Of a stretch of 41,905 nt of DNA, positions 9,823 through 41,905 are shown one piece after another. The stretch covers positions 1-41,905 of the forward strand of contig JAABTH010000017.1 in assembly GCA_011389985.1 (NCBI GenBank), in the 5' to 3' direction. Under the pieces are notes generated by a model that saw only the letters and a list, made by a program, of their open reading frames with translations, did no database searches and was not told where the DNA came from. The first letter of the stretch is position 1; each line of letters opens with the position of its first letter. Position numbers and translations under genes: made by a program. Source of the stretch: Bacillota bacterium (GTDB lineage: Bacteria > Bacillota > Dethiobacteria > DTU022).

Positions 9823-10845
9823 TTACAGAGGCAGCTTTCGGCCCAAATCCTGATCCAGTGCCTGCATCAGGACTTCTTTGCCCACGACTACATCACAGAC
9901 AGCCATACCGATGTTGCTGCAAACAATCAATTCGCTGTTGTTATTACGTCCGCTGAGCGTTTTGGCTATAATTTCGCCTGTCTCACCGGAAATAGTTGGG
10001 AGGCCGCCGGGAAAATAGCCCATCGATGCAAAAAGCTCATGCTCTTCAGAGCTGTCTACAAAATAGCGATCGGCACGTTTCAAAGTGGCTGGGTCGAAGT
10101 ATGTATTGAGGTCGCAAGGTAGTATTGTCTGTCCTGCGGAGATCCACTCATCTTTAACGGCAGCGAGCGGTTCAAGCAATATAACTGTGGCTGAACATAG
10201 TACTTCGCAGCTTTTTGCAACAGCTTCAGGGTTTTCACCACGTATAATTTCAGCTTCGATCTGCGGCTGTACAGTTTCAATCAGTTTGTCTACAGCCCGG
10301 GGGTTAATGTCGTAAACAAATATTTTTTCTAGCTTCTCGAGTGTGTGGACGATGTAGCGGCAGTGCTCTATTCCCTGAACACCACAGCCATACATGCCAA
10401 ATGATGCTGCATCTGGGTGTAGGGCACCGGCTGCCAGTGCAGTAACCGCTGGAGTGCGCATAGCGGTAATCCAGGTAGCATCCATAAGCGCTACAGGGCA
10501 GCCTGTCATAACATCGTTCATAATCAACAGGCCTGTAGTTTGCGGTAAGCCATATTTTTCAGGGTTTGAGGGGTAGCATTCTATCCATTTTAAGCCGACT
10601 GCATTTTTCCGGGGTACATAAGCGGGCATAGCGTGATAGAAGACTTCTCTGAAAGGGTGTACGCCGATTTTTGCCGGCATCTCATGGTTCTTCGTGCCGT
10701 GTGCTATCAGGGCTTCCTTGGTCAGGTCTAAGATATTGCCTATGGTCAGGCCTGCATTAGTTACCTCCTCTCTGGTCAGATAAAGGAGCTCACTACCTAT
10801 TTTGAGTTTTCCGATCATTTTTTCGCGCTCTTTTGTATCATTCAT
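9823..10845 (-). CDS. Ornithine cyclodeaminase / mu-crystallin family protein
   Basis: 340 residues, normal length for the family. The NAD(P)-binding Rossmann motif is GMYGCGVQGIEHCRYI (about residues 150-165), followed by an acidic residue at the end of the second strand (VYDIN). The substrate-side motif MRTPAVTALAAGAL and the late DLNTYFDPATL/RADRYFVD segments also fit. Family members catalyse ornithine cyclodeamination, alanine or N-alkyl amino acid (imine) dehydrogenation, or related steps, so the exact reaction cannot be read from sequence. AAAGGACG is placed 8 nt before the ATG. It is the last gene of the mttB-MFS-OCD operon, 24 nt after the MFS gene, suggesting it acts on an amino acid or imine product of that pathway. 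Confidence 0.85.
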   Translation of the reverse strand: MNDTKEREKMIGKLKIGSELLYLTREEVTNAGLTIGNILDLTKEALIAHGTKNHEMPAKIGVHPFREVFYHAMPAYVPRKNAVGLKWIECYPSNPEKYGLPQTTGLLIMNDVMTGCPVALMDATWITAMRTPAVTALAAGALHPDAASFGMYGCGVQGIEHCRYIVHTLEKLEKIFVYDINPRAVDKLIETVQPQIEAEIIRGENPEAVAKSCEVLCSATVILLEPLAAVKDEWISAGQTILPCDLNTYFDPATLKRADRYFVDSSEEHELFASMGYFPGGLPTISGETGEIIAKTLSGRNNNSELIVCSNIGMAVCDVVVGKEVLMQALDQDLGRKLPL

Positions 10846-10869
10846 TTAAATTACGTCCTTTCATTATAA

Positions 10870-12081
10870 TTAATCAAATTGCCGGTCAGGTGGCAGGTAT
10901 TTGTATGCAGCAGCTAATGCCGCAAGCGCCGCAATGAAAACGAGCAGGAAGGTAAAGTTAACTCCCAAAGCTTCACCTATAATGCCGGAAAGTGTAGTCT
11001 GCATGATCATGCCGATACCCATACAAAATTCAAGAAAACCCATTCCGAAGCCGATATAAGCGGGATTGATCAATTCGGCAATAAGGGTTATGGTCATGGT
11101 GAACATGATACCCGTGCCGATTCCGCCGGCCGCTGCCGCTAAGAGCAAGTGTGTATAGCTTGTAGCAGCGAAGAAGATCACAGTGGATAAAATAACCAAT
11201 GATATGCCTGCCATAAGAATATTTTTTAGTCCTAAGCGGATGGCATATTCACCGCTGACCCAAAAAGAGACCAGTCGCATACCCCAGAATATGGCGAAAA
11301 GGTATCCGATCTGCTGGGGGTGAGCGCCGATCAGGTCTGCTATTTTTGATAACAAACCCCAGATGGAATAAAGAAAGCCGGCGTAAGCAAAACCGGAAAG
11401 GCAGACCGGCCAAATCTTCTTAATTTCAGGGCCAACTATTGCCATTCGCATAGAGCCGGTTATGCTATGGTGCATTCTTTCTTCTAACGGTTTGTCTGAA
11501 ATTCCAAAGAGTGAGGTGCCCAGAACGATAATGCCGATTACCGGGTAGATCGGAAAGACTGCGGTAATAGAAATATGTTCCATAATAAAACCACCGCCAA
11601 GGGTTCCGATCACTGCACCAAATCCGTAAGCTGCTGTGAAATGCCCCATAATTTTACCTCTCAGTTCACATGCGGCGTTATCGGCAATTAGCGATTCAGC
11701 GAGCGGCCAGAGGATGCCCCTGCTTGCTCCCTCTAAGGTGCGGAAAAGTAAAAGAGCATCAGGAGTGGCAGCGTAATAGTAACCAACTGAAGCTGTAATT
11801 GAGAGGAGTATGCTAAATAGCAGGATGCTTTTTCTGCCCAGCTTGTCAGAAAAGGAGCCGGCAGTTACTGTCATCAGGGTGTAGGCAACTGAATAGCCTG
11901 TCATTAAATAACCCAGCTGCCTGTACGAAGCACCCAGGTCGTCACCTTGCAGCGGTATTGCCGGCGTAACAGCGCCCTCCCCGATTGACATCAGAAAGAT
12001 TAGCAGCCCTGTAAAAGTTATAGTGCGCAGTGAGCGTGACTTGCTGTCCGCTTTGTAAAGTGATTCTAAAAGATTAACCAA
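10870..12081 (-). CDS. Major facilitator superfamily transporter
   Basis: About 403 residues with twelve predicted hydrophobic segments. The MFS signature between segments 2 and 3 is visible as GSFSDKLGRKSILLF, and a second-half counterpart at SGEYAIRLGLKNILMAG. The segment near LFRTLEGASRGILWPLAESL is typical of drug/metabolite:proton carriers. The TTG at 12081 is preferred because GAGGAG stands 8 nt before it; a TTG at 12126 gives a longer, implausible N-terminus. It sits between the methyltransferase and the cyclodeaminase-family gene and is likely used for uptake of the substrate or export of a product. Substrate unknown. Confidence 0.8.
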   Translation of the reverse strand: MVNLLESLYKADSKSRSLRTITFTGLLIFLMSIGEGAVTPAIPLQGDDLGASYRQLGYLMTGYSVAYTLMTVTAGSFSDKLGRKSILLFSILLSITASVGYYYAATPDALLLFRTLEGASRGILWPLAESLIADNAACELRGKIMGHFTAAYGFGAVIGTLGGGFIMEHISITAVFPIYPVIGIIVLGTSLFGISDKPLEERMHHSITGSMRMAIVGPEIKKIWPVCLSGFAYAGFLYSIWGLLSKIADLIGAHPQQIGYLFAIFWGMRLVSFWVSGEYAIRLGLKNILMAGISLVILSTVIFFAATSYTHLLLAAAAGGIGTGIMFTMTITLIAELINPAYIGFGMGFLEFCMGIGMIMQTTLSGIIGEALGVNFTFLLVFIAALAALAAAYKYLPPDRQFD

Positions 12082-12165
12082 AGAGAGTTCTCCTCGCAAG
12101 TATAAGGTGAATAGTGAAGAGGACAATCTTCTTAAAAGAAAGTTTGCCCTCGTGACGCAGCGCTG

Positions 12166-13602
12166 CTAAAGGCTGCGAACAATATTGCTTATTTTCTCTT
12201 TTAGTTTTTGTTCCAGCGGTTTTGGCTGGTGACCCTCCACAATTGTTTTCAGCTTTTCGCGGGCCAGGTCTGCCAGATCGGGCTTTCCTTCGGCAGCCCA
12301 AAAATCGTAGCGACGGCGATTGAAGATAGTTGGGAACCACCAGTGCTTTTTAAAGTTCTCAAAGGTATGTTCTTCGGTCAGGTAGTGTCCGCCGGGCCCT
12401 ACTTTTTCGATCAGGTCGACGGCTAAAGTTTCGCTTTTTACCTCGATTCCCTTAACAATTTGCTTAACCTGTCCGATTACCTCGTCGGCGATAACCATCT
12501 GCAATAGCGATGTGCTGATGCCCGATTCAATAAAGCCTACATCGTGAATAAGGTTGGCTCCGCTTAGAGCTGCCATCAGGCAGTTGGTGGCTATGTCGAT
12601 TCCCATCTGCTGATCTACGCACTTTGAGTCGGAGCAGCCTGCCGTGCTAAACATGGGTATCCTGTAAAACTGGGCCATGTTAGTCATGCCTGCCGAGAGT
12701 AGGTTAAATTCGGGAGCTCCATAGCTGATTTGGGTTGTGGCCATGTCCAGTATGGTAGTTACTCCGCCCATAATATAGGGAGCGCCTTCCCGGGTTAGTT
12801 GGTGTACTACTAAGCTGCTAAGACACTCTGCATTGGCAATGACAATGGTTCCGGCCAGCGTGGCAGGCGCTGTCGCTCCGGCCAGGGGAGCCGGTGTATT
12901 GATGCAGGGCAGCATGTGCTCGGCCAGGAACATTGTTTTTTCCAGGGCATCAATGTCGTGTGTTAAAGGTGAGATCGGCTCTGAGTAAAAACAGAGGAAA
13001 GGGTAGTTTTGTAAATCCTGCAGGCTGCCGGCTATTTCGACCGCCATGTCAAGCATGGCCTTGTAATTTACGGCATTGAAGCCCCAATGAACGATCGGTT
13101 TGGTCGAGTTGTTAAGCATTGCTTCAAACATGTATACATCGGCCGCCTCTGTTTTTACATCCCTCGCGGTGCCAAAATCCATCTGGTAATCAATATTAGG
13201 CAGAGCGTCCATAACAAGTGAGGCTCGCCTTGTATCGGCGATCTCTACTAACCTTCGTTCATCGGTGAAGGGATCAAGGGTGTAATTAACAGTGGGGCCG
13301 GGGCCAAAATAGGAGTTGTTGTTTTCTAAAAAGATGCGCCTTACCCCTTCGCGATCACAGAGCACTACCCGGGAAGGAGCACTGCGAATGCAATTTTCAA
13401 CCAGTGCCGGTGGTATTTTTACCCTGGTGCCGTCGACATAGGCTCCTGCTTTCTTCATTAACTCTATTGCCCGGGGATACTTAATCTCAACGCCCACTCT
13501 TTCGAGCACTTCCAGTGTTGCAGAATGTATTTCCCGGCACTGCTCTTCTGTAAAGACTCGGAAATATAAGCTGGAGTTGGTAATGTAATTACTTCCTGAC
13601 AT
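12166..13602 (-). CDS. MttB-family (trimethylamine methyltransferase superfamily) protein, non-pyrrolysine type
   Basis: 478 residues, full family length, with no in-frame amber codon. The family TIM-barrel text is continuous: ILEVLERVGVEI-type N-terminus, VKIPPALVENCIRSAP, YFGPGPTVNYTLDP, PAPLAGATAPATLAGTIV, then GCSDSKCVDQQMG (about 322-334), the region where true MttB carries pyrrolysine. Members without pyrrolysine, such as MtgB (glycine betaine), MtpB (proline betaine) and MtcB (carnitine), demethylate quaternary amines by moving a methyl group to a corrinoid protein. No corrinoid protein or partner methyltransferase lies nearby, so it must use one encoded elsewhere or do something different. 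AGGAGG precedes ATG by 7 nt; a sigma-54 promoter lies at 13640-13655. Confidence 0.88.
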   Translation of the reverse strand: MSGSNYITNSSLYFRVFTEEQCREIHSATLEVLERVGVEIKYPRAIELMKKAGAYVDGTRVKIPPALVENCIRSAPSRVVLCDREGVRRIFLENNNSYFGPGPTVNYTLDPFTDERRLVEIADTRRASLVMDALPNIDYQMDFGTARDVKTEAADVYMFEAMLNNSTKPIVHWGFNAVNYKAMLDMAVEIAGSLQDLQNYPFLCFYSEPISPLTHDIDALEKTMFLAEHMLPCINTPAPLAGATAPATLAGTIVIANAECLSSLVVHQLTREGAPYIMGGVTTILDMATTQISYGAPEFNLLSAGMTNMAQFYRIPMFSTAGCSDSKCVDQQMGIDIATNCLMAALSGANLIHDVGFIESGISTSLLQMVIADEVIGQVKQIVKGIEVKSETLAVDLIEKVGPGGHYLTEEHTFENFKKHWWFPTIFNRRRYDFWAAEGKPDLADLAREKLKTIVEGHQPKPLEQKLKEKISNIVRSL

Positions 13603-13639
13603 ATCAAAACCTCCTGTTATTGCATTTAGCTATATGACT

Positions 13640-13655
13640 TGCAATTTCTGTGCCA
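13640..13655 (-). promoter_or_regulatory. Sigma-54 promoter of the mttB-type operon
   Basis: Minus-strand TGGCACAGAAATTGCA matches the TGGCAC-N5-TTGCA consensus at every conserved position, with the correct GG-to-GC spacing. Transcription would start about 12 nt further on, giving a leader of about 25-30 nt before the ATG. Sigma-54 promoters need an AAA+ activator; one is encoded at 14587-16371. Confidence 0.85.
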
Positions 13656-13685
13656 TTACCCATCGGTATATTTATGACGGGTAAT
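13655..13685. promoter_or_regulatory. Inverted repeat between two divergent sigma-54 promoters
   Basis: ATTACCCATC (13655-13664) and GACGGGTAAT (13676-13685) are inverted copies, 9 of 10 positions, with an 11-nt spacer. The site sits centrally between the two sigma-54 promoters and is a natural candidate for binding of the neighbouring enhancer-binding protein through its Fis-type helix-turn-helix. It is closer to the start sites than most enhancer sites, so repression is also possible. Confidence 0.5.
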
Positions 13686-13695
13686 ATAAATTTTG

Positions 13696-13712
13696 TTGGC
13701 ATGAAAATTGCG
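13696..13712 (+). promoter_or_regulatory. Sigma-54 promoter of the racemase-like gene
   Basis: TTGGCATGAAAATTGCG fits the TTGGCAC-N4-TTGCA consensus with the invariant GG and GC dinucleotides correctly spaced. The expected start site, near 13722-13724, lies about 40 nt before the ATG at 13763. Confidence 0.82.
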
Positions 13713-13762
13713 AATTTTATTTTTGGAGTAAGTTGCTTTTATTTTATAAGGAGGGTTTTGCC

Positions 13763-14551
13763 ATGTATTATCAGAATCGCGATATGGGGATAAATTATAT
13801 TAGGGCTAGAAAAGATTATGCTTGTTACGGGATGGGTTTGGGCATTATGATTCTTGATGATGTATACCCCGGATTCCCCGGAGACGTACGAAATGCCAGT
13901 GCCTTTCCGTATCCGATCCAGTATGAAGTTGTCAAGGGCATTGATATCAGGGCCCTCGTATGGGAAGAAGATAAATCTTCCTGCCTGGAACCGATTCAGG
14001 AGGCTGCCAGGAGACTTGAAAAGATGGGTTGTCGGGCAATCGCCGCAGAGTGCGGCTACTTTGCCTATTTTCAGGAGGCTGTTGCCGGTTATGTCGATAT
14101 ACCGGTATTTATGTCGAGCCTGCTGCAGGTTCCTTTTATCCAAAAAATTATTGGGCCTGAAAAACAGGTAGGCATCCTTTGCTTTCAGAAGCGATTTCTT
14201 ACCGATGTACATTTAAAAAGTGTTGGCATAGTCCCCGGCAGTAACTATGTGATTTCAGGTGCTTCTGATGAACTTGATTGTGAAGAATTTAATAATCTCT
14301 GGAACTGGGAGAAAAGAAAAGCCGTGCCTGAAGCATACTATAACAAGTCAGAACAAGAAATTGTTAAAGCCTGTAGTGAATTTGTTGCTGCGAACACTGC
14401 CATCGGGGCAATCATGCTTGAATGCACGGGTATGCAGCCTTACGGAAGGGCTATACAGCGAACTGTCGACCTGCCTGTGTTTGACTGGGGAACACTGCTC
14501 GACTATGCCTATTCTGTTGTAGCGCACCGTGATTATTATGGGCATGTATAG
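13763..14551 (+). CDS. Aspartate/glutamate/hydantoin racemase superfamily protein
   Basis: About 262 residues. Two cysteines sit where the racemase superfamily has its catalytic pair: AAECGYFAYFQ and MLECTGMQPYGRAIQ. The segments VGILCFQKRFL and AIGAIMLEC support the duplicated alpha/beta fold shared by Asp/Glu racemases, hydantoin racemase, maleate isomerase and AroM. The substrate cannot be told. The ATG at 13763 is chosen because AAGGAGGG lies 7 nt upstream; an upstream in-frame start at 13733 is beyond the ribosome site. Divergent from the mttB-type operon and under its own sigma-54 promoter, so it probably belongs to the same pathway, perhaps racemising or isomerising an amino acid intermediate. 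Confidence 0.75.
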   Translation: MYYQNRDMGINYIRARKDYACYGMGLGIMILDDVYPGFPGDVRNASAFPYPIQYEVVKGIDIRALVWEEDKSSCLEPIQEAARRLEKMGCRAIAAECGYFAYFQEAVAGYVDIPVFMSSLLQVPFIQKIIGPEKQVGILCFQKRFLTDVHLKSVGIVPGSNYVISGASDELDCEEFNNLWNWEKRKAVPEAYYNKSEQEIVKACSEFVAANTAIGAIMLECTGMQPYGRAIQRTVDLPVFDWGTLLDYAYSVVAHRDYYGHV

Positions 14552-14586
14552 CCGAAATGCCTAAGGCAAATGTTTGTTTACTAAAA

Positions 14587-16371
14587 TTAGCGCAGGTTAT
14601 ATTTTTTCAGCCGGTAGTGCAAACTTTGTCTGCTTAACCCAAGGGAGGCGGCTGCCTGGGCAATATTGCCTTTCGACAGCTTAAGGGCAGATATTATTTC
14701 TTCTTGTTCCTGCGATTGCATTTGCTCGATAATGTTTTTTAATTTCATTTTGCCCGAGGCAGGTGGTTTATGCGCAAGGGGCTCAGTATATGAATCTTCT
14801 CTGCCCTCGATTTTTGGTATCGCAGTGTTCTCGGCGCATTTGTTCATGCGGATTACCAGGTATTTGGGTAAATGCTCGACCCTGATTAGCTCGTTTTTTC
14901 CAGTGGCCATATTAACGGCGCATTCGATGCAGTGCATTAGCTCGCGTACATTACCCGGCCAGTTGTATAAATTAAACATCTCTTTTACTTCCATGCAAAG
15001 TCCGGCTACTTGCCTACCGGTCTGGCGGTTGTATTTGTCTATAAAGTAGCTGCTGAGTATATCCAGATCATCAAGCCTGTCACGCAGAGGGGGAAGGAAA
15101 ATATAAATAACGGCCAGCCGGTAAAAAAGATCGCTTCGTAACTGACCTCTTTCGATAGCCTGGGAAGGCTCTAAATTACAGCTGGCCATGGTTCTTACAT
15201 CAAGAGATATACTCTCGCTACCACCAACTCTTATTACCTTTTTTTCTTCCACGAATCGCAGAAGCTTAGTTTGCAGTTGCACGGGCATTGAATTAATTTC
15301 ATCAAGGAAAAGGCTGCCTTTATGCGCTAGCTCGATCAGGCCAGCCCGGTCTACCGCTCCCGTGAATGCTCCCTTGGTCGTGCCGAATAAAATTCCTTCT
15401 AGCAGATTCTCTGGAATAGCGGCGCAGTTTATTGCCAGAAAAGGCCCTCCGGAACGGTGACTTGCGCTATGGATGCTCTGAGCAATCATTTCTTTGCCTG
15501 TACCTGTTTCTCCGTAGATTAATACTGAAGAGTCGCTGTCGGCGCTGGCTTTGCCCCACCTGACACTTTCCAAAATATGTTTGTTCTTGCCCAGAATTTG
15601 GTCAAAGGTATAATAAGTATCATCTTTTTTGCCCCTTGGTTTTTTACTGCTGCTGAATTGCTTCTGCAGGCGTAATACTCTTTCAGCCATTTCCTTAAAT
15701 TTGATGAAGTCTTTCGTTATTGCTGCTGCGCCGATTATCTTGCCTTCAGAGTATAGTGGCATAGCGCTGCAAACTATGCTTACATATTTACCGTCGGTTG
15801 TCACATAATTCTGATAGGCGTCATGGGTGTGAATCCCTTCGTTCAAAGCTTTTAAAACAAGTGATGTTTCATTGTCCAGGTCATATACTTCAGTCCAGCG
15901 TCGGCCGATCACGTCAATAGTAAGGCCGTCTAAGTGCTGCTGCGACGGGTTAATATAGCTGACCCTGCCGTTGATATCAGCTACGTGTATGCCTTCGTAA
16001 ATAGAATTGAGAATGCTTTCGTAAATGTCTTTCTGTACTTTAACTTCTGCATAACGGTTGCCCAGTTCTATGTTAAAGTGGTTGTCTGATAGGAATAGGG
16101 TCTTGTAATTACCCGTCTGAAGGGTAATATTTTCTTTTCTGACGATAAAGCTTTTACGCAGGGTTTTATATTCATAGTTGCTGATTTCTTTATTACAGTC
16201 AAGCCCGGGCAGCACTGATTCGATCGGTTTTCCGACCGGGTTTTCATATTCAGGCCCAATCAGATTTAGCAGCTTTTTGTTGCATTTAACAATTATATGA
16301 TCCTTGTCTATAGTGATTATCGCTTCATGGGTTTTGTCCAGTATTTTTTCAGATAATTTATGATCTTTCAT
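14587..16371 (-). CDS. Sigma-54 enhancer-binding protein (PAS-PAS-AAA+-Fis)
   Basis: About 594 residues. Two PAS-type sensor domains (about 10-90 and 120-225; the second contains GIHVADINGRVSYINPS) precede the AAA+ domain (about 260-490). Walker A is GETGTGKEM, the sigma-54 contact loop is GAFTGA, Walker B is GSLFLDEINSMP. The C-terminus is a Fis-type helix-turn-helix, NIAQAAASLGLSRQSLHYRL. It is thus a cytoplasmic activator that opens sigma-54 promoters in response to a ligand or redox signal sensed by PAS. Its gene ends 35 nt from the convergent racemase-like gene and lies next to three sigma-54 promoters, its obvious targets. The start is uncertain: ATG 16371 or TTG 16383; neither has an ideal ribosome site. 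Confidence 0.9.
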   Translation of the reverse strand: MKDHKLSEKILDKTHEAIITIDKDHIIVKCNKKLLNLIGPEYENPVGKPIESVLPGLDCNKEISNYEYKTLRKSFIVRKENITLQTGNYKTLFLSDNHFNIELGNRYAEVKVQKDIYESILNSIYEGIHVADINGRVSYINPSQQHLDGLTIDVIGRRWTEVYDLDNETSLVLKALNEGIHTHDAYQNYVTTDGKYVSIVCSAMPLYSEGKIIGAAAITKDFIKFKEMAERVLRLQKQFSSSKKPRGKKDDTYYTFDQILGKNKHILESVRWGKASADSDSSVLIYGETGTGKEMIAQSIHSASHRSGGPFLAINCAAIPENLLEGILFGTTKGAFTGAVDRAGLIELAHKGSLFLDEINSMPVQLQTKLLRFVEEKKVIRVGGSESISLDVRTMASCNLEPSQAIERGQLRSDLFYRLAVIYIFLPPLRDRLDDLDILSSYFIDKYNRQTGRQVAGLCMEVKEMFNLYNWPGNVRELMHCIECAVNMATGKNELIRVEHLPKYLVIRMNKCAENTAIPKIEGREDSYTEPLAHKPPASGKMKLKNIIEQMQSQEQEEIISALKLSKGNIAQAAASLGLSRQSLHYRLKKYNLR

Positions 16372-16383
16372 AGTTGTCAGCAA

Positions 16384-16937
16384 CCCCCGGATGAAAAAAG
16401 TTTATACGTGCTCTATTAGTTGGTTTATTGGCTTAAAAAAGAAAAACTCCTTCTTATAAATAAACAAAAGAGAAAAATATGTAAAAATAGTATTTAATAT
16501 ATTGACGTATCGGACATTAAGATATCTTTAATTTGTTCTGAATAGGCTCAACAATAAGAATTATAGCTTTAAACTCAACTGGATGCAGGTTTTGTGAATA
16601 AGGCGGTCAGGTATTTTGCTTTTAGTTTTGCAATGCTTATTATGGCATGATAATTGCTCTATCATGATACAGATTTATTCTTCAGCAGATAGGATTTTAA
16701 AAATCCCCAAATTGTGGCAAGATGGGATTTCTCTTAACTTTTATGCATTTTATGCTTCAATTATTTTGATAAATGTAATATAGTATAAAGTATTATAAAT
16801 TAAATCTATTCATATGAATTTTATGGATATTGGTAATTTTATTTTTAATTTTTATCCGGGAGGTGGTTGTTGAATAATTTTTTTTGCAATCAATAGAATA
16901 TAATAACTTAATCGAGACATTATGAGGAGTTGATTCG
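16384..16937. promoter_or_regulatory. Control region between the activator gene and the importer operon
   Basis: An AT-rich 554-bp gap without a gene. It holds the sigma-54 promoter at 16643-16658 and, about 110 bp upstream of that, a near-perfect palindrome ATTAAGATATCTTTAAT (16516-16532), at the normal distance for an enhancer site. The leader between the promoter and the ATG at 16938 is long (about 265 nt) and AT-rich; I see no known riboswitch in it. Confidence 0.5.
16643..16658 (+). promoter_or_regulatory. Sigma-54 promoter of the ABC importer operon
   Basis: TGGCATGATAATTGCT matches the sigma-54 consensus with GG and GC correctly spaced. The inverted repeat CATGATA (16646-16652) and TATCATG (16660-16666) overlaps the -12 half and the likely start site, so a repressor could act here. 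The promoter faces the importer genes beginning at 16938. Confidence 0.75.
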
Positions 16938-17834
16938 ATGGATTTATCTGCTACAGGAGATATTTTACTGTCTGGAATTTTAAGAGGTGGGCTTTTTGTT
17001 TTGATAGCCATGGGGCTTTCACTTGTTTTTGGCGTTATGAATATCCCCAACTTTGCTCATGGTGAGTTTTACATGTTGGGCGCTTATTTTTCCTACTATG
17101 CTTATGCAGTATTTGGTTTAAACCCGATCCTGGCTATTATGGCAGCTGGGGCCGGAGGTTTTGTCTGCGGAGCAATTATGGAAAGAACCGCCTTCAGATC
17201 GCTAAGGGTTAGGCAAAAAACAAACTGGGTAATGAATAGTTTTCTGCTTACTGTAGGTTTAAGTATCGTTTTGCAGAACTCAGCCCAGGCCCTTGTTGGT
17301 ACCAAGTTTATGGGAATCAGTCAATACTGGCAGGGCAGCGTTGCAATAATGGGCATGAATGTTTCCATTGACAGGCTGGCCGGTTTTGGGGTAGCCATGG
17401 CTACCGTTCTCCTATTCTGGATTTTCCTAACGAAGACAAAAACAGGTAATTCCATCAGGGCCGTCTCTGAAGATGAATCCGGAGCGATGTTGGTTGGTAT
17501 TAATCTTAACAGGGTCTATACCCTTACTTTTTCTATTGCCTGTATGTTGGCCGGTATTGCCGGAGCAGCCCTGCTTTCGATAAACCCGGCTTATCCTACC
17601 ATGGGCCTGGCTCCACTGTATAAATCATGGTTTATTGTAATACTTGTCGGTATGGGTAATGTAGGGGGAACTATTATCGGCGGATTTATAGTCGGAATGG
17701 TTGAGGCCCTATCATATTACAACCTTGGTGCCGGTTGGCAGGATGTAATTAGCCTGCTTGTAATTATTATCATCCTGTTGTTTAAACCTTCAGGCTTGTT
17801 CGGTAAAGATGTCAAAGGTGTATGGGAGAGGTGA
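16938..17834 (+). CDS. livH: Branched-chain amino acid-type ABC transporter permease (LivH-like)
   Basis: 298 residues with about eight hydrophobic segments. LivH-family text is clear: GLSLVFGVMNIPNFAHGEFYMLGAY-type region near residues 25-50, GNSIRAVSEDESGAMLVGIN (the ATPase-contact loop) and IVILVGMGNVGGTIIGGFIV. It forms the inner-membrane channel with the LivM-like subunit. GAGGAG precedes the ATG by 8 nt. First gene of a five-gene operon (two permeases, binding protein, two ATPases). The substrate may be an amino acid or betaine rather than leucine, given the neighbouring methyltransferase operon (inference). Confidence 0.9.
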   Translation: MDLSATGDILLSGILRGGLFVLIAMGLSLVFGVMNIPNFAHGEFYMLGAYFSYYAYAVFGLNPILAIMAAGAGGFVCGAIMERTAFRSLRVRQKTNWVMNSFLLTVGLSIVLQNSAQALVGTKFMGISQYWQGSVAIMGMNVSIDRLAGFGVAMATVLLFWIFLTKTKTGNSIRAVSEDESGAMLVGINLNRVYTLTFSIACMLAGIAGAALLSINPAYPTMGLAPLYKSWFIVILVGMGNVGGTIIGGFIVGMVEALSYYNLGAGWQDVISLLVIIIILLFKPSGLFGKDVKGVWER

Positions 17835-17835
17835 A

Positions 17836-18843
17836 ATGATGCAAACAGAAACAAATCAGAATCTTTTACTGTCAATGAAAAAGAAAAATATCTTAAGAGA
17901 GCTTGGCTTTACACCTCTCGGTCTTGGTTTGCTAATTTTGGTTGCCCTGGTGCCCTTATTTATCGATAACCAGTATTATCTACACCTTATTGTGTCAAGT
18001 TTAATGTTTGGGGCATTGGCTATGGGTTTTGATTTTACAGTCGGCTATATCAATATTGTTAATTTTGGATACGCCGCATTTATGGGTGTGGGGGGTTATG
18101 TCTCGGCTCTACTGGCTACCAGACTGGGTATATCACCCTGGATTGGTATATTCGTTGCTGCTGCAGCTGCCGCAGTACTTGGTTTTCTGATCGGTATATT
18201 AACTTTGCGTTTAAGAGGAATGTTTGCCGCTATCATGGCCTGGTTCGTCGGAATAGTTCTGATGTCGCTTGCGTCAAATATGGTTGACTTAACCAGGGGT
18301 CAACTTGGCCTGAATGTGCCGCTTCTTTTTACGGGATCCGGAAAAGCACCTTACATTTACACAATTCTTGCTATTGTAATTCTTACTTACATAGTGCTTA
18401 AGCGAATGATCAGTTCTAAGATCGGCCTGGCTTTTAATGCAATTGGTCAGGATTTGGAAGCAGCAGAAACATCCGGAGTTAATGCAACCAAGTATAAAGT
18501 TTTAAACTTTACGGTTTCATGTGCTTTTGCCGGGCTGATTGGTGGTTTTTACGGTCACTTTGTCGGCATTTTGACCCCGGCTGTTTTACATACCCGGGTT
18601 ACAGTCGAGATTTTAGCGCTCTGCTATATCGGTGGGCGTGGTTCAATCTGGGGTGGGTTACTGGCTGCTTTTCTGATCATTCCTATCTTTGAATTTTTAC
18701 GGCCGCTAATGGAGATCCGGTTAATCATATATGGCCTTCTGTTGGTTTTGGTTATGATCTTTTACCCTGGTGGGCTTGCTCAGTTTCTTAATCAGTTAGC
18801 TTTTTACCTGAAAGATTTAATGCCCTTTAAAAAACAGGCTTAA
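17836..18843 (+). CDS. livM: Branched-chain amino acid-type ABC transporter permease (LivM-like)
   Basis: 335 residues with about nine to ten hydrophobic segments. The LivM-type coupling loop is KIGLAFNAIGQDLEAAETSG, and GFDFTVGYINIVNFGYAAFM and LALCYIGGRGSIWGGLLAAF are family landmarks. The ATG at 17836 begins one base after the LivH stop, with GGGAGAGGTG just upstream inside the end of the LivH gene; the frame is open to 17809 but that start lacks a site. Partner of the LivH-like subunit in the channel. Confidence 0.9.
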   Translation: MMQTETNQNLLLSMKKKNILRELGFTPLGLGLLILVALVPLFIDNQYYLHLIVSSLMFGALAMGFDFTVGYINIVNFGYAAFMGVGGYVSALLATRLGISPWIGIFVAAAAAAVLGFLIGILTLRLRGMFAAIMAWFVGIVLMSLASNMVDLTRGQLGLNVPLLFTGSGKAPYIYTILAIVILTYIVLKRMISSKIGLAFNAIGQDLEAAETSGVNATKYKVLNFTVSCAFAGLIGGFYGHFVGILTPAVLHTRVTVEILALCYIGGRGSIWGGLLAAFLIIPIFEFLRPLMEIRLIIYGLLLVLVMIFYPGGLAQFLNQLAFYLKDLMPFKKQA

Positions 18844-18989
18844 AGATTTAATCCTCTATATTTCAGATGGAGGTTCATGACTTTTACCTGATGGGTTAAA
18901 GATAAAAATCTAGTTAAGGGGGGGGTGAAAGCTTAATAATATTTAGCTTTATTAAACACTGTTTTACAAGAAAAAAGGAGGGTATTCAA

Positions 18990-20303
18990 TTGATTAGAAA
19001 GCAATATCTCGTAATTCTGCTTGTATTAGCAATGGTTGTGAACTTTTCTCTATTTGGATGCGGAGATAGTGCCGACCCGGATCCGGCACCAGATAATGGT
19101 GAGCCGGTAGGTGATGAGCCAGGCCAGGTTCTCAAAGTTGGTGTTCTTGGGCCTTTTACCGGACCGAACTCAAGGGTTGGTGAAGAGTTCATTGGAGCTG
19201 TAGAAATGGCTTTTGATAACTATGATTCTACTATCGGCGACTACAAACTGGAAATTGTCCAGATTGATTCACAGTCTGATCCTGAAAAGGCTACCAGGGC
19301 TTACGAGGATGCTGCAATCAGGGATGGCATAGATGTCAGTATTTTAAACTGGCATAGTTCGGTAGCTGCAGCCTGTATGGATGCAGCAGCACGTAACCAG
19401 GTTCCACATTTCTTTGGTTTTGGCGCTGCTGATATTGTTAATGAAAAATACTTAGGTGATCGTGATTTTTACAGCTACTGGATCGGTAAAACATGGCCTA
19501 CTCCTGGGAAATTGGTCCAGGCTTATGTTGAAACAATTGAACAGGCAATTGATGAAGGTGTTTGGGAACCACGCAATAAAAAAGCTGCTATGATTTGTGA
19601 AGACACTGATTGGGGCAGAAGTATTGCTGCGGCATTGATGGAATACCTGACTGACGCAGGGTGGGAGATAGTTGCTGAAGAGTACTTTACACTTGGTGAA
19701 ACCGAATTAACTCCCACACTTTTAGCGATCAGAAATTCCGATGCTTCACTGGTTGGTTCTTCCGTGGCGAGTGCGCCATCTTTTGCCTCGCTCGTTAAAC
19801 AGTCCAGGGAGGTTGATCTTCAGGCAGTAATGATTGCTGACGGCCTTGGTTGGATCGGTGAGTGGTATGAACTGACTGGCGATGATTCAAACTATATCCT
19901 CGACCAGATTCCGCAATGGACCACAGAGGAATCAAAACAGTTCCTGCAGGACTTTGAAGACCGTTATGGCTTTACCCCCAGCACTTCAGCCGGTGGTTTG
20001 GCTTACGATGCCACCTCTTTCTTCCTGCAGATTGCTCAGGCATGCTATGATGAACATGGTGAATTAAGCAGGGAAACCCTGCATGAATTTGCAAATGCAA
20101 GGGTTATTACCGGCGAAATAGCATTTGACGACGGGATTATTATGGAACAATATGTCTTCACAGAGGAAAGTATTCCTGACCCGGTAGTTGGTGAAGGATA
20201 CTTTATTTTCCCGGTTATCCAGTACTTGGAAGGTGAGGGAACGGTAGTCTGGCCTGATTCTTTCAAGCAGGCCGACTTTGTCCTTCCCGAATATCTTCGC
20301 TAA
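18990..20303 (+). CDS. ABC transporter substrate-binding lipoprotein (LivJ-like)
   Basis: 437 residues. The N-terminus is a lipoprotein signal (basic start, LVILLVLAMVVNFSLFGC with the modified Cys at about residue 24) followed by an acidic, Pro-rich linker. The mature part is a type I periplasmic-binding fold of the Leu/Ile/Val family: KVGVLGPFTGPNSRVGEEFI, then VQIDSQSDPEKATRAYEDA. TTG at 18990 follows AAGGAGGG by 7 nt. A strong hairpin lies just after the stop. It catches the substrate outside the membrane and hands it to the LivHM-like channel. Substrate unknown. Confidence 0.88.
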   Translation: MIRKQYLVILLVLAMVVNFSLFGCGDSADPDPAPDNGEPVGDEPGQVLKVGVLGPFTGPNSRVGEEFIGAVEMAFDNYDSTIGDYKLEIVQIDSQSDPEKATRAYEDAAIRDGIDVSILNWHSSVAAACMDAAARNQVPHFFGFGAADIVNEKYLGDRDFYSYWIGKTWPTPGKLVQAYVETIEQAIDEGVWEPRNKKAAMICEDTDWGRSIAAALMEYLTDAGWEIVAEEYFTLGETELTPTLLAIRNSDASLVGSSVASAPSFASLVKQSREVDLQAVMIADGLGWIGEWYELTGDDSNYILDQIPQWTTEESKQFLQDFEDRYGFTPSTSAGGLAYDATSFFLQIAQACYDEHGELSRETLHEFANARVITGEIAFDDGIIMEQYVFTEESIPDPVVGEGYFIFPVIQYLEGEGTVVWPDSFKQADFVLPEYLR

Positions 20304-20318
20304 ATAGAATAGATGTGG

Positions 20319-20344
20319 GGGGTGGCAGTATAAACTGCCACCCC
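20319..20344 (+). other. Hairpin after the binding-protein gene
   Basis: GGGGTGGCAG (20319-20328) and CTGCCACCCC (20335-20344) form a perfect 10-bp stem with a 6-nt loop. No T-run follows, so it probably protects the 3' end of the upstream message or partly terminates it. This would give more binding protein than ATPase, a common arrangement in ABC importer operons. Confidence 0.7.
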
Positions 20345-20376
20345 GGATTAACATAATTAGAGAGAGAAGGTGCCGG

Positions 20377-21111
20377 ATGCAGGAGAATATTTTAGTCACA
20401 AAAGATGTAGTTAAACGCTTCGGAGGCCTGACAGCGGTAGAAAAAGTTTCGATAGAGGTAAAAAAAGGAGAAGTATTTGGTATTATCGGCCCAAACGGTG
20501 CCGGTAAAACTACCTTTTTAAACTGTGTTTCCGGTATATATAATCCGGAGGAAGGCGAAATTCTTTATAAAGGAAAAAATATTAAAGGTCTTTCATCACA
20601 CGTTCTCTGTAAAAAGGGTATTGCCCGTACATTTCAGATTGTCCGATCCTTTCATAAGATGACTGCTCTGGATAATGTTAAAGTTGCTGTCATATTTGGC
20701 AGCGATAAAGATCAGGATCCGAATGATAAAGCCAGAGAGTTGCTTGATTATGTCAATTTTCCTCTGCCGGTCGAAACACTTGCATCAAATCTTAATACCG
20801 TGCAGTTAAAATATCTCGAGTTGGCTCGCGCCCTGGCTACAGATGGTGAACTGCTTTTACTGGATGAGGTTGCTGCAGGTTTAACCCCTGGTGAATTAGG
20901 AGAATTTATAGATCTAATTAAAAAAATTCGTGACAGTGGAGTTACGGTTATATCCATTGAGCATGTGATGAAATTTATTATGACAATTTGTGACAGGATC
21001 GCTGTTATTCATTACGGGGAAAAAATTGCCGAAGGTACCCCCGAAGAAATAGTCAATAACAAGGTCGTTATTGAAGCCTACCTTGGCAAGGAGCATGCAA
21101 AGACAAACTGA
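20377..21111 (+). CDS. livG: ABC transporter ATPase (LivG-like)
   Basis: 244 residues. Walker A is GPNGAGKTT (about 38-46), Q-loop region IARTFQIVRSF, Walker B ELLLLDEVAAGL and the switch His in VISIEHVM. The signature motif is not LSGGQ but LNTVQLKYLELARAL; the following L-x-x-A-R-A-L is intact, and similar variants occur in part of the LivG family. The C-terminal extension AEGTPEEIVNNKVVIEAYLG is LivG-typical. ATG 20377 follows GAGAGAAGGTG. With the LivF-like ATPase it powers the importer. Confidence 0.88.
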   Translation: MQENILVTKDVVKRFGGLTAVEKVSIEVKKGEVFGIIGPNGAGKTTFLNCVSGIYNPEEGEILYKGKNIKGLSSHVLCKKGIARTFQIVRSFHKMTALDNVKVAVIFGSDKDQDPNDKARELLDYVNFPLPVETLASNLNTVQLKYLELARALATDGELLLLDEVAAGLTPGELGEFIDLIKKIRDSGVTVISIEHVMKFIMTICDRIAVIHYGEKIAEGTPEEIVNNKVVIEAYLGKEHAKTN

Positions 21112-21149
21112 GTCTGACTAACACTACAGTGAAGGATCAAGAGATTAGC

Positions 21150-21228
21150 GGTGCCCTGGGGACGGGGTTCGAGCGTCCTGAAGCAGAGCGAAGGCCGAAG
21201 GAGAGACGATGGAACCGTTCTCTGTGCC
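21150..21228. repeat. GGGGACGG-type repeat inserted between the two ATPase genes
   Basis: The left end GGTGCCCTGGGGACGGGGTT and the right end, on the other strand GGCACAGAGAACGGTTCC, form an imperfect inverted pair bracketing a purine-rich core. The 175-nt gap between the ATPase genes is unusually long for this operon type, and most of the excess is this element. It belongs to the same loose family as 463-527. Confidence 0.5.
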
Positions 21229-21286
21229 TTAGCCGGCTCCGGTAACGACAAAAAGTATCGCTGTAGCACGAAGGAGCGAGGAACAA

Positions 21287-21997
21287 GTGCTTGAATTAAA
21301 AAATGTTAGCGCGGGTTACGGCCCCCTGCAGATACTCTGGGGAATTTCTTTAAAAGTTGATACAGGAGAGTTTGTATCACTGGTTGGCCCAAACGGTGTA
21401 GGAAAAACAACCTGCCTGAAAACAATTGCCGGTATGATCAAGATAACTGAAGGAGAGATACTTTTTAACGGGATTGATATCAGCAACATGTACGTTCCGG
21501 ATATAACCAAGCAGGGGCTCAGTTTTGTCACGGAAGGTGGCTGCCTCTTTGCCGGGATGACTGTGCATGAAAACCTGCGGCTTGGAGCATATATTCTAAA
21601 AGATAAAAAGCAGATCGCTGAACTCGAAGGTTTTGTGTTCTCACTCTTCCCCAGGTTGGCTGAACGAGAGAAGCAGCTGGCTGGAACTCTGAGCGGTGGA
21701 GAGAGAAAAATGCTCTCAATTGCCAGGGGTTTGATGTCGGCACCAAAAATATTGCTCGTTGATGAACCGTCTCTTGGGCTTGCTCCCAATCTTGTTGATG
21801 ATGTTTTCGATACCCTGGTAACTTTGAATAAAGAGCAAGGGCTGACAATATTTCTGGTAGAGCAAAACGTGCACACCACTCTTGAAATTACAGACAGAAC
21901 TTACGTTATAGAGCAGGGAAGAATCTGTTTACAGGGTAAAAGTGGAGATTTGCTAAACAATGATCATGTTAAAAGCTGTTATCTAGGTTTAACCTAA
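21287..21997 (+). CDS. livF: ABC transporter ATPase (LivF-like)
   Basis: 236 residues. Walker A GPNGVGKTT, canonical signature TLSGGERKMLSIARGL, Walker B KILLVDEPSLGLAP, switch His replaced by the LivF-typical Gln in IFLVEQNVH. The ending (GKSGDLLNNDHVKSCYLGLT) is the normal LivF C-terminus. GTG at 21287 follows GGAGCGAGGA. Last gene of the importer operon; convergent with the thiamine transporter operon, with 86 nt between and no clear terminator. Confidence 0.9.
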   Translation: MLELKNVSAGYGPLQILWGISLKVDTGEFVSLVGPNGVGKTTCLKTIAGMIKITEGEILFNGIDISNMYVPDITKQGLSFVTEGGCLFAGMTVHENLRLGAYILKDKKQIAELEGFVFSLFPRLAEREKQLAGTLSGGERKMLSIARGLMSAPKILLVDEPSLGLAPNLVDDVFDTLVTLNKEQGLTIFLVEQNVHTTLEITDRTYVIEQGRICLQGKSGDLLNNDHVKSCYLGLT

Positions 21998-38025: not shown

Positions 38026-39549
38026 ATGAAACTTGCCGGAGACGGTGAATACCGTGGAGACATTTTAAATGAAAAACCTCATGGAAATGGTACTGTTACC
38101 TGGCCTGATGGCAGCAGGTATACCGGGGAATGGAAAGAAGGACTCTTCCACGGCGAGGGAGTCTTTACCTGGTCAAATGGAGATAAATATGATGGACAAT
38201 GGAAAGAAGATCGCATGCATGGTCGGGGAACGTATCTCTTTGCCGACTGGCGTAAATATGTGGGTGATTGGTTTGAAGATCAAATGCATGGGGTCGGCAC
38301 ATATTATTGGCCAAGTGGTGAAAAATATGAAGGAGAATTTGTAGAAGGTTTCTATGAAGGGTGGGGGACGTACTCGTGGCCTGATGGAAAAATATATACC
38401 GGTTATTGGAAAAATGCTACTCGCAATGGCGAAGGTAAAATGGTCTGGCCTGATGGAAGAAGTTATGAAGGAACCTGGAAAGACGATAAAAGAGAAGGCG
38501 TCGGTATAATGATTTGGCCGGATGGTAGTAAATATGAAGGTTTATGGAAAGAAGGACGCAGACATGGACCGGGGATCTATCATTTCGCCAATAGATCGCG
38601 TTTCGAAGGTCTTTTCCAGGAAGGTACTTTTACTAATAAAGGGCACTATTATTTTAGTGACGGATCATCCTATCAGGGGCCCCTTAAAAGTGGTTTGCCT
38701 GAAGGTAATGGTGTGGTTACTTTTGTCACTGGCGGCAAATACTACGGAAAATTTAAGGACGGACATAATCTTGGTAAAGGTCGTTTTGTTTACCCCGACG
38801 GTGCCGTCTATGTTGGCGAAAGCAAGAACAATTTGCCTCATGGAGAAGGAGAACTGGTTTACAAAAACGGTTCCCGCTATTGTGGTATCTTCATAGAAGG
38901 TAAGCCAGCCGACAGCGGCCGGTTTTTCTTTCCTGATGGATCAAAATATAATGGTGGGCTCAAAGAAGGGCTGCCTTATGGTGAAGGAACTGTGATTTAT
39001 AACGATGGGTTAGAATATAAAGGCAGTTTTTTTGAAGGTAAGCGTGAAGGGTATGGCGAGCAGAAATGGCCTGATGGATCAAAATATAAAGGGCAGTGGA
39101 TAGAAGATCAAATTTGTGGTAACGGTATTTTCAAATCGGTTTCAGGTGATCTTTATGAGGGAGAATTCAAAGCCGGACTCTGGCACGGCTGCGGAACTCT
39201 TAAACAGGCAGATGGTTCAGTATTTGAAGGCCGCTGGCAGCGTGGAAAACTTCACGGCAGGGGAACTTGCTATTTTGCCTCGGGACTCAGTTATAAAGGA
39301 GAGCTTGCTAAAGGTGAATATCACGGCTGGGGAATAATGAAAAAGGCAGATGGCAGCATCTATCGCGGCCGGTGGTGGAAAAGCCTTAAGCATGGATACG
39401 GAGTTTATATATCCGGTTGTGGTGACAGTTACAGCGGCAGATGGTTGTTTAACCGCTGTTATGGGAGGATGGTTGTCAAGAGCTCTGATCAAACTTTTAA
39501 AAGCGGATTTTGGATTTTCGGACTAGGACCATACCTCTTAAGAAAGTAA
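38026..39549 (+). CDS. MORN-repeat protein
   Basis: 507 residues made of 21 complete MORN repeats of exactly 23 residues each (from about residue 9 to 491) plus a partial last unit, with an 8-residue head and a short hydrophobic tail (FWIFGLGPYLLRK). The unit pattern is Y-x-G-x-W/F-x-x-G-x-x-H-G-x-G-x-x-x-W/F-x-D-G-S-x. No enzyme domain, signal peptide or membrane helix is joined to it. MORN repeats form elongated beta-hairpin stacks that bind proteins or membranes and are best known in eukaryotes. The start is the ATG at 38026 with AAAGG some 13 nt before it. Role unknown. Confidence 0.9.
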   Translation: MKLAGDGEYRGDILNEKPHGNGTVTWPDGSRYTGEWKEGLFHGEGVFTWSNGDKYDGQWKEDRMHGRGTYLFADWRKYVGDWFEDQMHGVGTYYWPSGEKYEGEFVEGFYEGWGTYSWPDGKIYTGYWKNATRNGEGKMVWPDGRSYEGTWKDDKREGVGIMIWPDGSKYEGLWKEGRRHGPGIYHFANRSRFEGLFQEGTFTNKGHYYFSDGSSYQGPLKSGLPEGNGVVTFVTGGKYYGKFKDGHNLGKGRFVYPDGAVYVGESKNNLPHGEGELVYKNGSRYCGIFIEGKPADSGRFFFPDGSKYNGGLKEGLPYGEGTVIYNDGLEYKGSFFEGKREGYGEQKWPDGSKYKGQWIEDQICGNGIFKSVSGDLYEGEFKAGLWHGCGTLKQADGSVFEGRWQRGKLHGRGTCYFASGLSYKGELAKGEYHGWGIMKKADGSIYRGRWWKSLKHGYGVYISGCGDSYSGRWLFNRCYGRMVVKSSDQTFKSGFWIFGLGPYLLRK

Positions 39550-40138: not shown

Positions 40139-41905
40139 TTGGATGAACTAAAAAGTATCCAGGTATTTTTACAGCAGGTAACTGGAGCTTTTGCCGGTGT
40201 AGTTGATATAGAAATCGGTGTAATCAACAAAGACCTTGAAGTTATAGCTGGCAGCGGTTACTTTGAAAAAGAAGTCGGCGCCATCTATGATGATGGTTGT
40301 ATGACTCATAAAATTATGTTATCGCCAGGCGAAGATTCAATATTAGTTGAAAATACGGTTTATGCAGTCTGTTGTGCCGATTGTGAATACTCGGCTCAAT
40401 GCGATGTTCTTGCCTTCCTGATGCAACCAATTATATATGACAACCATAAAATCGGAACTCTTTCGCTCCTTGCCCTGACAGAGCAGCATCGCCGCAAGTT
40501 GGTCAACCATTATGATAAAATGCAGGATTTTCTGAACAAACTTTGCAATATTATAGTGATCAGCCTGAACGAAAAAAGGATGGAAATTAAGGTCACCAGC
40601 CTGATGAATCAGTTCAGAGACGTAATAAACTCAGTTTATGAAGGCATAATTGCAATCAACCCAAATGGCAGCATTACCAATATAAACAAAGCGGCCGAGA
40701 AGATGCTAGGCCTTGAACATGGTAACAAAAAAGGTCATCATATAAAAAATCTCTTCCCTGATTTCAATGTGGAAGATGTAATCAGTATGAATTACAGTTC
40801 CGGCAGTGACCAGTATTTTGGTAAAGAGATCTCTTATAACGGGAATGGGAACAAGAAGATAAACCTTTTCTACAATATTACCCTTATGTATGAAGATACA
40901 AGTGTTTCAGGGGCTGTTCTTTCTTTCAGGCGTAAAGAAGAAGTCGAAGAAATGGCCAACCGGATTGTTAAAGAGAATAAAATGACAACATTTTCCGGTA
41001 TAATCGGAGCCAGTAATGAATTAACCGAGATTAAGAAAAAAATGAAACTTATATCTTCAACCGATTCAACAGTTCTGATCCGGGGTGAAACAGGCACAGG
41101 TAAAAGTGTTTTTGCCAGGGCTATTCATGAAGAAAGCCCGCGTCGGAAAAATCCTTTTATAGCAATTAGCTGTGCGGCCATACCGGCACCCCTGCTTGAA
41201 TCCGAGCTTTTTGGTTATGAAGAGGGCGCCTTTACCGGAGCCCGCAAAGGAGGCAAGCCGGGTAAATTTGAACTTGCTCACGGTGGAACCATATTTCTTG
41301 ACGAAATAGGTGATATGCCGCTCGATTTTCAGGTTAAACTTCTTCATGTTATAGAGAACAAAACCATTGCGCGTATCGGTGGTGTTTCTTTTCGGGATGT
41401 GGATGTGCGGATCATTGCTGCAACCAACAGAGATTTGGAAGAACTGATTAAAGAGGGCAAATTCAGAGAGGATCTCTACTACAGGATCAATGTTATCCCT
41501 TTCAGGCTTCCCCTTTTAAAGGAAAGAAAAGACGACATACTTTTACTGATGCACCACTTCCTCGATTATTATTCCAGGCGCTTGAACAAACAAATATCAG
41601 GATTCCGTGAAGATTCCCGGGAAGCACTGCTTGCCTACCCCTGGCCAGGTAATGTGAGAGAACTGGAAAATGCAGTGGAATACGCGGTTAATATTGAATC
41701 AGAGCCAAAGATTAACAGGGCCAGTCTTCCCGATAAAATTATAAGGTATCTTGGACGCAGTGATACGAGTGGACTGGAAGATTTAACATCACTCGAAAGC
41801 AAGGCAATCAGGGTAGCGCTTCAGAAATATGGTCACAGCACCAGCGGTAAAGAAAAGGCTGCATCTGCTCTTGGTATCAGCCGGGCTACCCTTTACAGAA
41901 AGCTA
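40139..41905 (+). CDS. Sigma-54 enhancer-binding protein, PrdR-like, runs off the window
   Basis: 589 codons are seen and the end is missing. TTG at 40139 follows GGGGGGG by 7 nt. The N-terminal domain (about 1-140) holds a cysteine cluster, VCCADCEYSAQC (residues 78-88), that may sense redox or bind metal. A PAS domain follows (about 160-270: GIIAINPNGSITNINKAAEK). The AAA+ domain (about 285-510) has Walker A GETGTGKSV, GAFTGA and GGTIFLDEIGDMP. A Fis-type helix-turn-helix (KEKAASALGISRATLYRKL) has begun at the edge, so only a few residues are probably missing. Likely activator of genes to the right; together with the PrdX-like gene it resembles proline reductase regulation. Confidence 0.88.
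   Translation, partial: MDELKSIQVFLQQVTGAFAGVVDIEIGVINKDLEVIAGSGYFEKEVGAIYDDGCMTHKIMLSPGEDSILVENTVYAVCCADCEYSAQCDVLAFLMQPIIYDNHKIGTLSLLALTEQHRRKLVNHYDKMQDFLNKLCNIIVISLNEKRMEIKVTSLMNQFRDVINSVYEGIIAINPNGSITNINKAAEKMLGLEHGNKKGHHIKNLFPDFNVEDVISMNYSSGSDQYFGKEISYNGNGNKKINLFYNITLMYEDTSVSGAVLSFRRKEEVEEMANRIVKENKMTTFSGIIGASNELTEIKKKMKLISSTDSTVLIRGETGTGKSVFARAIHEESPRRKNPFIAISCAAIPAPLLESELFGYEEGAFTGARKGGKPGKFELAHGGTIFLDEIGDMPLDFQVKLLHVIENKTIARIGGVSFRDVDVRIIAATNRDLEELIKEGKFREDLYYRINVIPFRLPLLKERKDDILLLMHHFLDYYSRRLNKQISGFREDSREALLAYPWPGNVRELENAVEYAVNIESEPKINRASLPDKIIRYLGRSDTSGLEDLTSLESKAIRVALQKYGHSTSGKEKAASALGISRATLYRKL

Follow-up and report, generated by a model that had tools for sequence, protein, structure and literature searches.

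The locus described here raises the question of what a full-length MttB-superfamily methyltransferase does in an operon that contains no cognate corrinoid gene but ends in a gene of the ornithine-cyclodeaminase/mu-crystallin (OCD) family. The window, that is, the whole 41,905-nucleotide stretch that was analysed, opens contig C6 of a draft genome of 1.90 Mb (45 contigs, 97% completeness). The region singled out in the original prediction (12166-14551) spans only the MttB and racemase-like genes, whereas the functional set covers 9823-21997 and adds a sigma-54-dependent activator and a Liv-type ABC operon. The genes of the set, with the evidence for each, are as follows.

9823-10845, minus strand: OCD-family NAD-type dehydrogenase, third gene of the operon (PF02423)
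10870-12126, minus strand: MFS carrier, second gene of the operon (PF07690; L020 and L021 have orthologues of 67-75% identity in the same position)
12166-13602, minus strand: MttB-superfamily methyltransferase, non-pyrrolysine, 478 aa (PF06253, TIGR02369, phmmer to 2qne/9yce/7xcl, alignment, tree)
13763-14551, plus strand: Asp/Glu/hydantoin-racemase-like enzyme, PRK07475 family (NF005679 above cut-off; C97 and C221 conserved)
14587-16383, minus strand: sigma-54-dependent activator with PAS domains, PrdR-like (PF00158, PAS, HTH_8)
16938-21997, plus strand: Liv-type ABC importer (PF02653, PF13458, BCA_ABC_TP_C), with permeases at 16938-17834 and 17809-18843, binding protein at 18990-20303 and ATPases at 20377-21111 and 21287-21997

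The layout was as originally predicted, with the racemase-like gene divergent from an operon of MttB, the MFS carrier and the OCD-family gene. Because the gaps within the operon are just 39 bases (MttB/MFS) and 24 bases (MFS/OCD), co-transcription of its three genes is likely. The racemase ORF was listed from TTG 13733; its likely start is ATG 13763, which is preceded by AAGGAGGG. Elsewhere in the window, a gene at 38026-39549 encodes a MORN-repeat protein of 507 aa.

The methyltransferase ORF has zero in-frame stops, in agreement with the prediction of a full-length protein that lacks an amber codon, and in a profile search it matched PF06253 over positions 22-491 of 500 (E 2.2e-95). Its score against TIGR02369 was 449 bits, under the cut-off of 525 for a true trimethylamine (TMA) methyltransferase, and alignment with 7xcl, the reference structure for the Pyl334/Tyr364 numbering (PMC9842639), placed Cys323 at the Pyl334 position and His353 at that of Tyr364. 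With no TAG at the Pyl334 position and no Tyr364, assignment as a pyrrolysine-type trimethylamine methyltransferase was rejected. So was orthology with MtgB (2qne/9yce), since in a tree of 60 rows the window protein fell in a different, strongly supported branch. In the same tree, seven OCD-linked MttBs formed one clade (support 99/97; identity 57-92%), in which Cys323 and His353 are invariant in all seven members, as are many residues along the length of the protein. The host genome carries 19 MttB genes; seven further ones are also of the Cys/His type, and four (L006, L013, L014 and L015) carry TAG in frame at precisely the Pyl position, with the Tyr retained. Pyrrolysine is thus likely used in this bacterium and, as read from the genes, Pyl-type and Cys/His-type MttBs coexist in one organism. 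The window MttB is very probably a corrinoid-dependent quaternary-amine demethylase.

To see whether the neighbouring families stay together, we compared the locus with those of other genomes. The nearest named relatives by MttB were Ca. Formimonas warabiya DCMF (65%) and one MAG each of Bacillota (92%), Syntrophomonadaceae (85%) and Lachnospiraceae (57%), and in all four the OCD gene lies next, or next but one, to MttB. When 398 genomes of the phylum were queried with the OCD protein (hits at E 1e-70 or better), six other genomes matched; a further search within the order of G181 covered four genomes. Two of these genomes, G181 and G202, have the MttB gene (77% and 60%, respectively) in the vicinity of the match, and the other four (G465, G427, G476 and G220) lack one nearby and gave no MttB hit at E 1e-90 genome-wide. 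In total, seven genomes have both genes, and the two are neighbours in every one of them: the window, L020, L021, L022 (Ca. Formimonas warabiya DCMF), L023 (a Lachnospiraceae member), L067 and L069. These pairs span several families. The OCD enzyme is not itself tied to demethylation, as orthologues exist in loci that have no MttB (L068, L070, L071 and L072); in L068 and L071, a sigma-54 regulator of the same type, a DAO-family oxidoreductase gene and a saccharopine-dehydrogenase-family gene lie near it. The MFS carrier is present in three of the seven sets, placed between MttB and OCD, and a BCCT carrier gene stands beside the pair in L022, L023 and L067. Any single window can contain unrelated genes, and a carrier common to three sets of seven could be such a bystander; however, the recurrence across families, the retention of the same gene set in rearranged order in L021 and the shared sigma-54 promoters described below make it extremely improbable that the genes are chance neighbours. 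For MttB and OCD that explanation is refuted by the neighbourhood data, although not fully for the MFS carrier.

The racemase-like gene follows a different pattern. Its product scored just at the cut-off of PF01177 and clearly above that of NF005679 (277.6 vs 231 bits), and C97 and C221 are invariant in the six sequences aligned, including that of L112, where an antisense ORF masks the gene in the ORF listing and the sequence was read for the alignment. A sequence search against solved structures gave nothing useful. The predicted model matched an Asp/Glu racemase in fold (Z 11.9), and because it is of low confidence (mean pLDDT 64.6) we claim only the superfamily. Among 98 genomes of the class, five others carry an orthologue (64-82%), directly beside MttB genes in 5/5, or 6/6 with the window counted. 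It is nevertheless absent beside five of the seven MttB-OCD pairs, the L020 contig ending too soon to tell; two racemases accompany the window type of MttB and four accompany other MttBs. In L110-L113, octopine-dehydrogenase-family and PanB-family genes replace OCD, as identified in L110 and, by likeness, in the others. The clusters at L110-L113 and L115 all combine two MttBs with genes of the octopine-dehydrogenase, PanB and proline-racemase families, and four of them have the racemase orthologue. Of the families around this MttB, OCD stays with it throughout and the MFS carrier and the racemase do not, and the chances that the racemase acts in the same pathway as MttB appear to be even.

Evidence of common control came from a search for the sigma-54 motif TGGCAYN5TTGC, which has four matches in the window where 0.27 would be expected. 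Genes of the set follow three of them, and a conspicuous repeat lies between the divergent promoters:

13641-13655, minus strand: predicted sigma-54 (-24/-12) promoter of the MttB operon, TGGCACAGAAATTGC, motif 53 bases before the MttB start
13656-13684, no strand: inverted repeat TTACCC-N17-GGGTAA, 0.09 expected
13697-13711, plus strand: predicted sigma-54 promoter of the racemase gene, TGGCATGAAAATTGC, motif 66 bases before the racemase start (counterpart in L021 at 2029, minus strand)
16643-16657, plus strand: predicted sigma-54 promoter upstream of the Liv operon, TGGCATGATAATTGC, motif 295 bases before the operon

Together with the enhancer-binding activator gene at 14587-16383, the motifs at 13641, 13697 and 16643 make up a predicted sigma-54 regulon. 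The activator scored 375 bits against the PrdR model, the closest among named models, under its cut-off of 795; orthologues occur in L021 (67%) and L022 (48%), and it is the probable regulator of the module. The inverted repeat might conceivably serve as an activator site, and it is not conserved in the loci of the relatives. Sigma-54-like sites were also found in L021 (ahead of the racemase and MttB genes), L022 (corrinoid gene, MttB and Liv operon), L067 (MttB and OCD), L069 (corrinoid gene) and L110-L113 (MttB-racemase operons). Since matches to the motif precede each of these genes, the predicted promoters would make uptake, demethylation, racemisation and, in the relatives, the corrinoid protein parts of one response. 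The Liv importer probably serves substrate uptake: orthologues of its operon adjoin the MttB-OCD genes of L021 (74/61%) and form part of a different MttB cluster at L115 (57/49%). Searched against solved structures, the sequence of its binding protein found weak relatives only and gave no hint of the substrate. A further sigma-54 activator gene, at 40139-41905, is truncated by the window end. Cumulatively, the recurrent association and the shared sigma-54 control show that the genes belong together, as had been proposed, and form a real, conserved and co-regulated module beyond chance.

The original prediction had called this module an orphan. In the ORF lists of the window there is indeed no corrinoid or second methyltransferase gene, and no corrinoid gene lies beside the pair in its four closest members, namely the window, L020 (a short contig), L021 and L067. 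In L022, L023 and L069, a corrinoid-protein gene (MtgC-like, PF02310+PF02607) does lie beside the pair. In the MttB tree the latter three are early branches and the former the inner four, and because the early branches keep an adjacent corrinoid gene, its loss in the inner four is the simplest account. The host genome itself has at least six B12-binding_2 hits, all on contigs other than that of the window, a lower bound because several contigs break off within a corrinoid gene or shortly ahead of one. It also encodes a PRK07535-type (Pterin_bind) methyl-THF:corrinoid methyltransferase on C16, inside a glycine-betaine-like cluster, and one RACo-type corrinoid activator (a RACo_C_ter protein) on C42. 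Thus, the partners suggested for a genome-wide search were present except for MtrH, of which a profile search found none in the host genome, and the term orphan holds only for the module's own neighbourhood. The corrinoid protein is likely supplied in trans, which is established practice, since E. limosum uses a single corrinoid protein, MtqC, with MtpB, MtcB and MtyB alike (PMC12155760). CdhC (ACS) was not found in the host draft of 97% completeness, where absence is not proof, and Wood-Ljungdahl acetogenesis as the methyl sink was set aside for that reason. Contigs also break within or next to corrinoid-protein genes at L007, L014, L024, L028 and a number of further MAG loci; near-identical copies of these genes are the probable cause, so that corrinoid counts from such MAGs are too low.

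The missing neighbour could also be read, together with the replacement of Pyl by Cys, as a sign that this MttB has left corrinoid chemistry for another reaction on an amino acid, an option that the original prediction had entertained. However, early branches of the very same clade have corrinoid genes beside the same MttB-OCD pair, seven other MttBs of the host have Cys at this position and one of them (L007) adjoins a corrinoid gene at a contig end, and many residues along MttB are invariant in the clade. As the partner proteins are encoded elsewhere in the genome and corrinoid sharing is known, no different reaction is needed, and we consider this one highly improbable.

The OCD-family ORF scored 151 bits against PF02423 (cut-off 24), and the alignment shows K59, K86, R130, a GxGxxG motif and Tyr-Asp after the second strand as conserved features. 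Its predicted structure (mean pLDDT 84) most resembles those of SbnB, pyrroline-2-carboxylate reductase and alanine dehydrogenase (AlaDH), each over more than 300 residues, with Z 36.8 over 316 residues for SbnB and Z 35.7 for the reductase of T. litoralis. Because an Asp ends the second strand, as in AlaDH and SbnB, use of NAD rather than NADP is suggested. The enzyme lies far under the cut-off of every named function model, and ornithine cyclodeaminase proper (PRK07589, 72 of 350 bits) as well as archaeal-type alanine dehydrogenase and the SbnB equivalog (129.7 of 409 and 150.9 of 327 bits) were rejected as assignments; most inner branches of the OCD tree are unsupported. The OCD orthologue in L072 has a gene for a VorB-type 2-oxoacid oxidoreductase downstream of it, a context, though not proof, that would suit a dehydrogenase converting an amino acid to a 2-oxo acid. 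Alternatively, in a pathway for the betaine of proline or hydroxyproline, the enzyme could be a reductase or cyclodeaminase, for instance one acting on delta1-pyrroline-2-carboxylate or on ornithine. Such a role would agree with the fold likeness to the T. litoralis enzyme, with PrdR as the nearest named model of the regulator and with the proline-racemase-family genes that adjoin other MttBs (L100, L115). We nonetheless judge it distinctly unlikely, given that the score against PRK06141 (81 of 322 bits), like that against PRK07589, is far below the cut-off, that the Asp favours NAD and that no proline-family gene lies near the module. The evidence tips instead towards an NAD dehydrogenase that acts on the product of MttB.

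We therefore lean towards a catabolic module under sigma-54 control that handles an N-methylated alpha-amino acid, most probably a betaine, by corrinoid-dependent demethylation and subsequent oxidation by the OCD enzyme; that the substrate is an alpha-amino-acid betaine is, taken alone, reasonably probable. The Liv importer (in relatives, a BCCT carrier) would take up the betaine, and MttB would pass one methyl group to the Co(I) of a corrinoid protein whose gene lies outside the window; the methyl-THF:corrinoid methyltransferase would hand this group on to THF. The OCD enzyme would then use NAD+ to oxidise the amino acid left by demethylation, giving a 2-oxo acid and ammonia or a methylated amine, on the model of SbnB and archaeal alanine dehydrogenase with their own substrates, and the racemase might provide the enantiomer needed by one of the enzymes. 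The families of the genes, their layout, the promoter motifs, the conserved association and the corrinoid genes of the relatives are observations; the direction and substrate of the OCD step and the order of reactions are what we infer from this arrangement. In a more specific version, a complete anaerobic route for alpha-amino-acid betaines that we hold to be doubtful, the OCD enzyme would act on the tertiary or secondary N-methyl amino acid left by MttB and yield, beside the 2-oxo acid, a methylated amine usable by other methyltransferases of the genome. Counting against the proposed pathway are the lack of a corrinoid gene beside the four closest pairs, that of the window included, and that of a racemase beside 5/7 pairs, as well as the low scores of the OCD enzyme against all named functions, its occurrence in loci with no MttB and the failure to find CdhC.

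A separate set of duties under one regulator, with MttB demethylating a betaine, the MFS carrier exporting the product and OCD and racemase serving an unrelated amino acid, has several points in its favour. In characterised MttB systems, demethylation ends with a single methyl group, as in the conversion of choline to dimethylaminoethanol (PMC12155760), and E. limosum releases its own demethylated products; OCD genes are found with no racemase, racemase genes with no OCD, and OCD genes also with no MttB; and in three genomes the MFS gene lies between MttB and OCD. Yet MttB and OCD are adjacent in 7/7 genomes that have both, also where the MFS carrier is absent, and racemase orthologues adjoin MttBs in six genomes, so that we regard separate duties as rather unlikely. 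The breakdown of a betaine or amino acid, as first proposed, remains the best reading.

Other MttB genes of the host stand in comparable company. On C12 (locus L100, G000:C12, 100-5790), FTCD_C, FtcD, histidine ammonia-lyase (HutH), MttB and a proline-racemase-family gene form one run that looks like a route for the breakdown of hercynine (histidine betaine). On C1 (L108, G000:C1, 142-7968), genes for a HisC-like aminotransferase, an ADP-forming acyl-CoA ligase, a HutP-family protein, and IorA and IorB of indolepyruvate oxidoreductase, directly precede MttB, possibly an aromatic amino-acid betaine route. Both sets look like demethylation joined to the breakdown of a given amino acid, as from hercynine to histidine, and the window module fits with them. 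At L101 (1-6396), xanthine-dehydrogenase-type subunits are encoded immediately ahead of two MttB genes.

Among the listed results of a literature search for MttB together with ornithine cyclodeaminase, no paper mentioned both, and the pairing seems undescribed so far; demethylation by MttB is already known, and what is new is that it is coupled to a putative OCD-family dehydrogenase and a racemase. Most non-pyrrolysine MttB proteins lack an assigned substrate; just six members of the very large superfamily have a known one (PMC12155760). A fixed enzyme partner narrows the choice to a short, testable list, as the demethylated product must be oxidisable by an OCD-family dehydrogenase, and the compact MttB-OCD-corrinoid-BCCT set of L023, in a genome with few MttBs, is a convenient test case. 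If the proposal is true, these anaerobes also use the amino-acid skeleton beyond clipping the methyl group, and methylotrophy on quaternary amines would be connected to the fermentation of amino acids.

Among known systems, the window MttB resembles the non-pyrrolysine methyltransferases MtgB (compared by sequence) and MtpB, MtcB, MtyB and MthB (compared by published descriptions) in family, length and lack of Pyl, and BCCT and corrinoid genes are seen beside its relatives. In the papers searched, none of these five enzymes is described as having a partner of the OCD family. MtgB shares the His at the Tyr364 position but has Leu where the window protein has Cys at the Pyl position, and it belongs to a separate, well separated clade. 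The glycine-betaine cluster of Ca. Formimonas warabiya DCMF (PMC9768040) combines MttBs, a corrinoid protein, a methyltransferase II and a BCCT carrier, and a similar cluster lies on host C16; unlike the window module, the DCMF cluster has a hydantoinase-like gene and no OCD, and its host counterpart (L098) has no sigma-54 promoter match. The racemase scores over the curated cut-off of the PRK07475 branch of Asp/Glu/hydantoin racemases and keeps both catalytic-type cysteines, with no close solved relative by sequence. With SbnB and archaeal AlaDH, the OCD enzyme shares the fold (Z 33-37), the NAD-type nucleotide site and the Lys and Arg columns, at 27-29% identity and with scores far below the family cut-offs. 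It differs from AlaDH in having His71 in place of Arg52 and CDLNT in place of the Asp219 loop, and for these reasons the reaction that we assign to it by analogy with these two enzymes is a guess.
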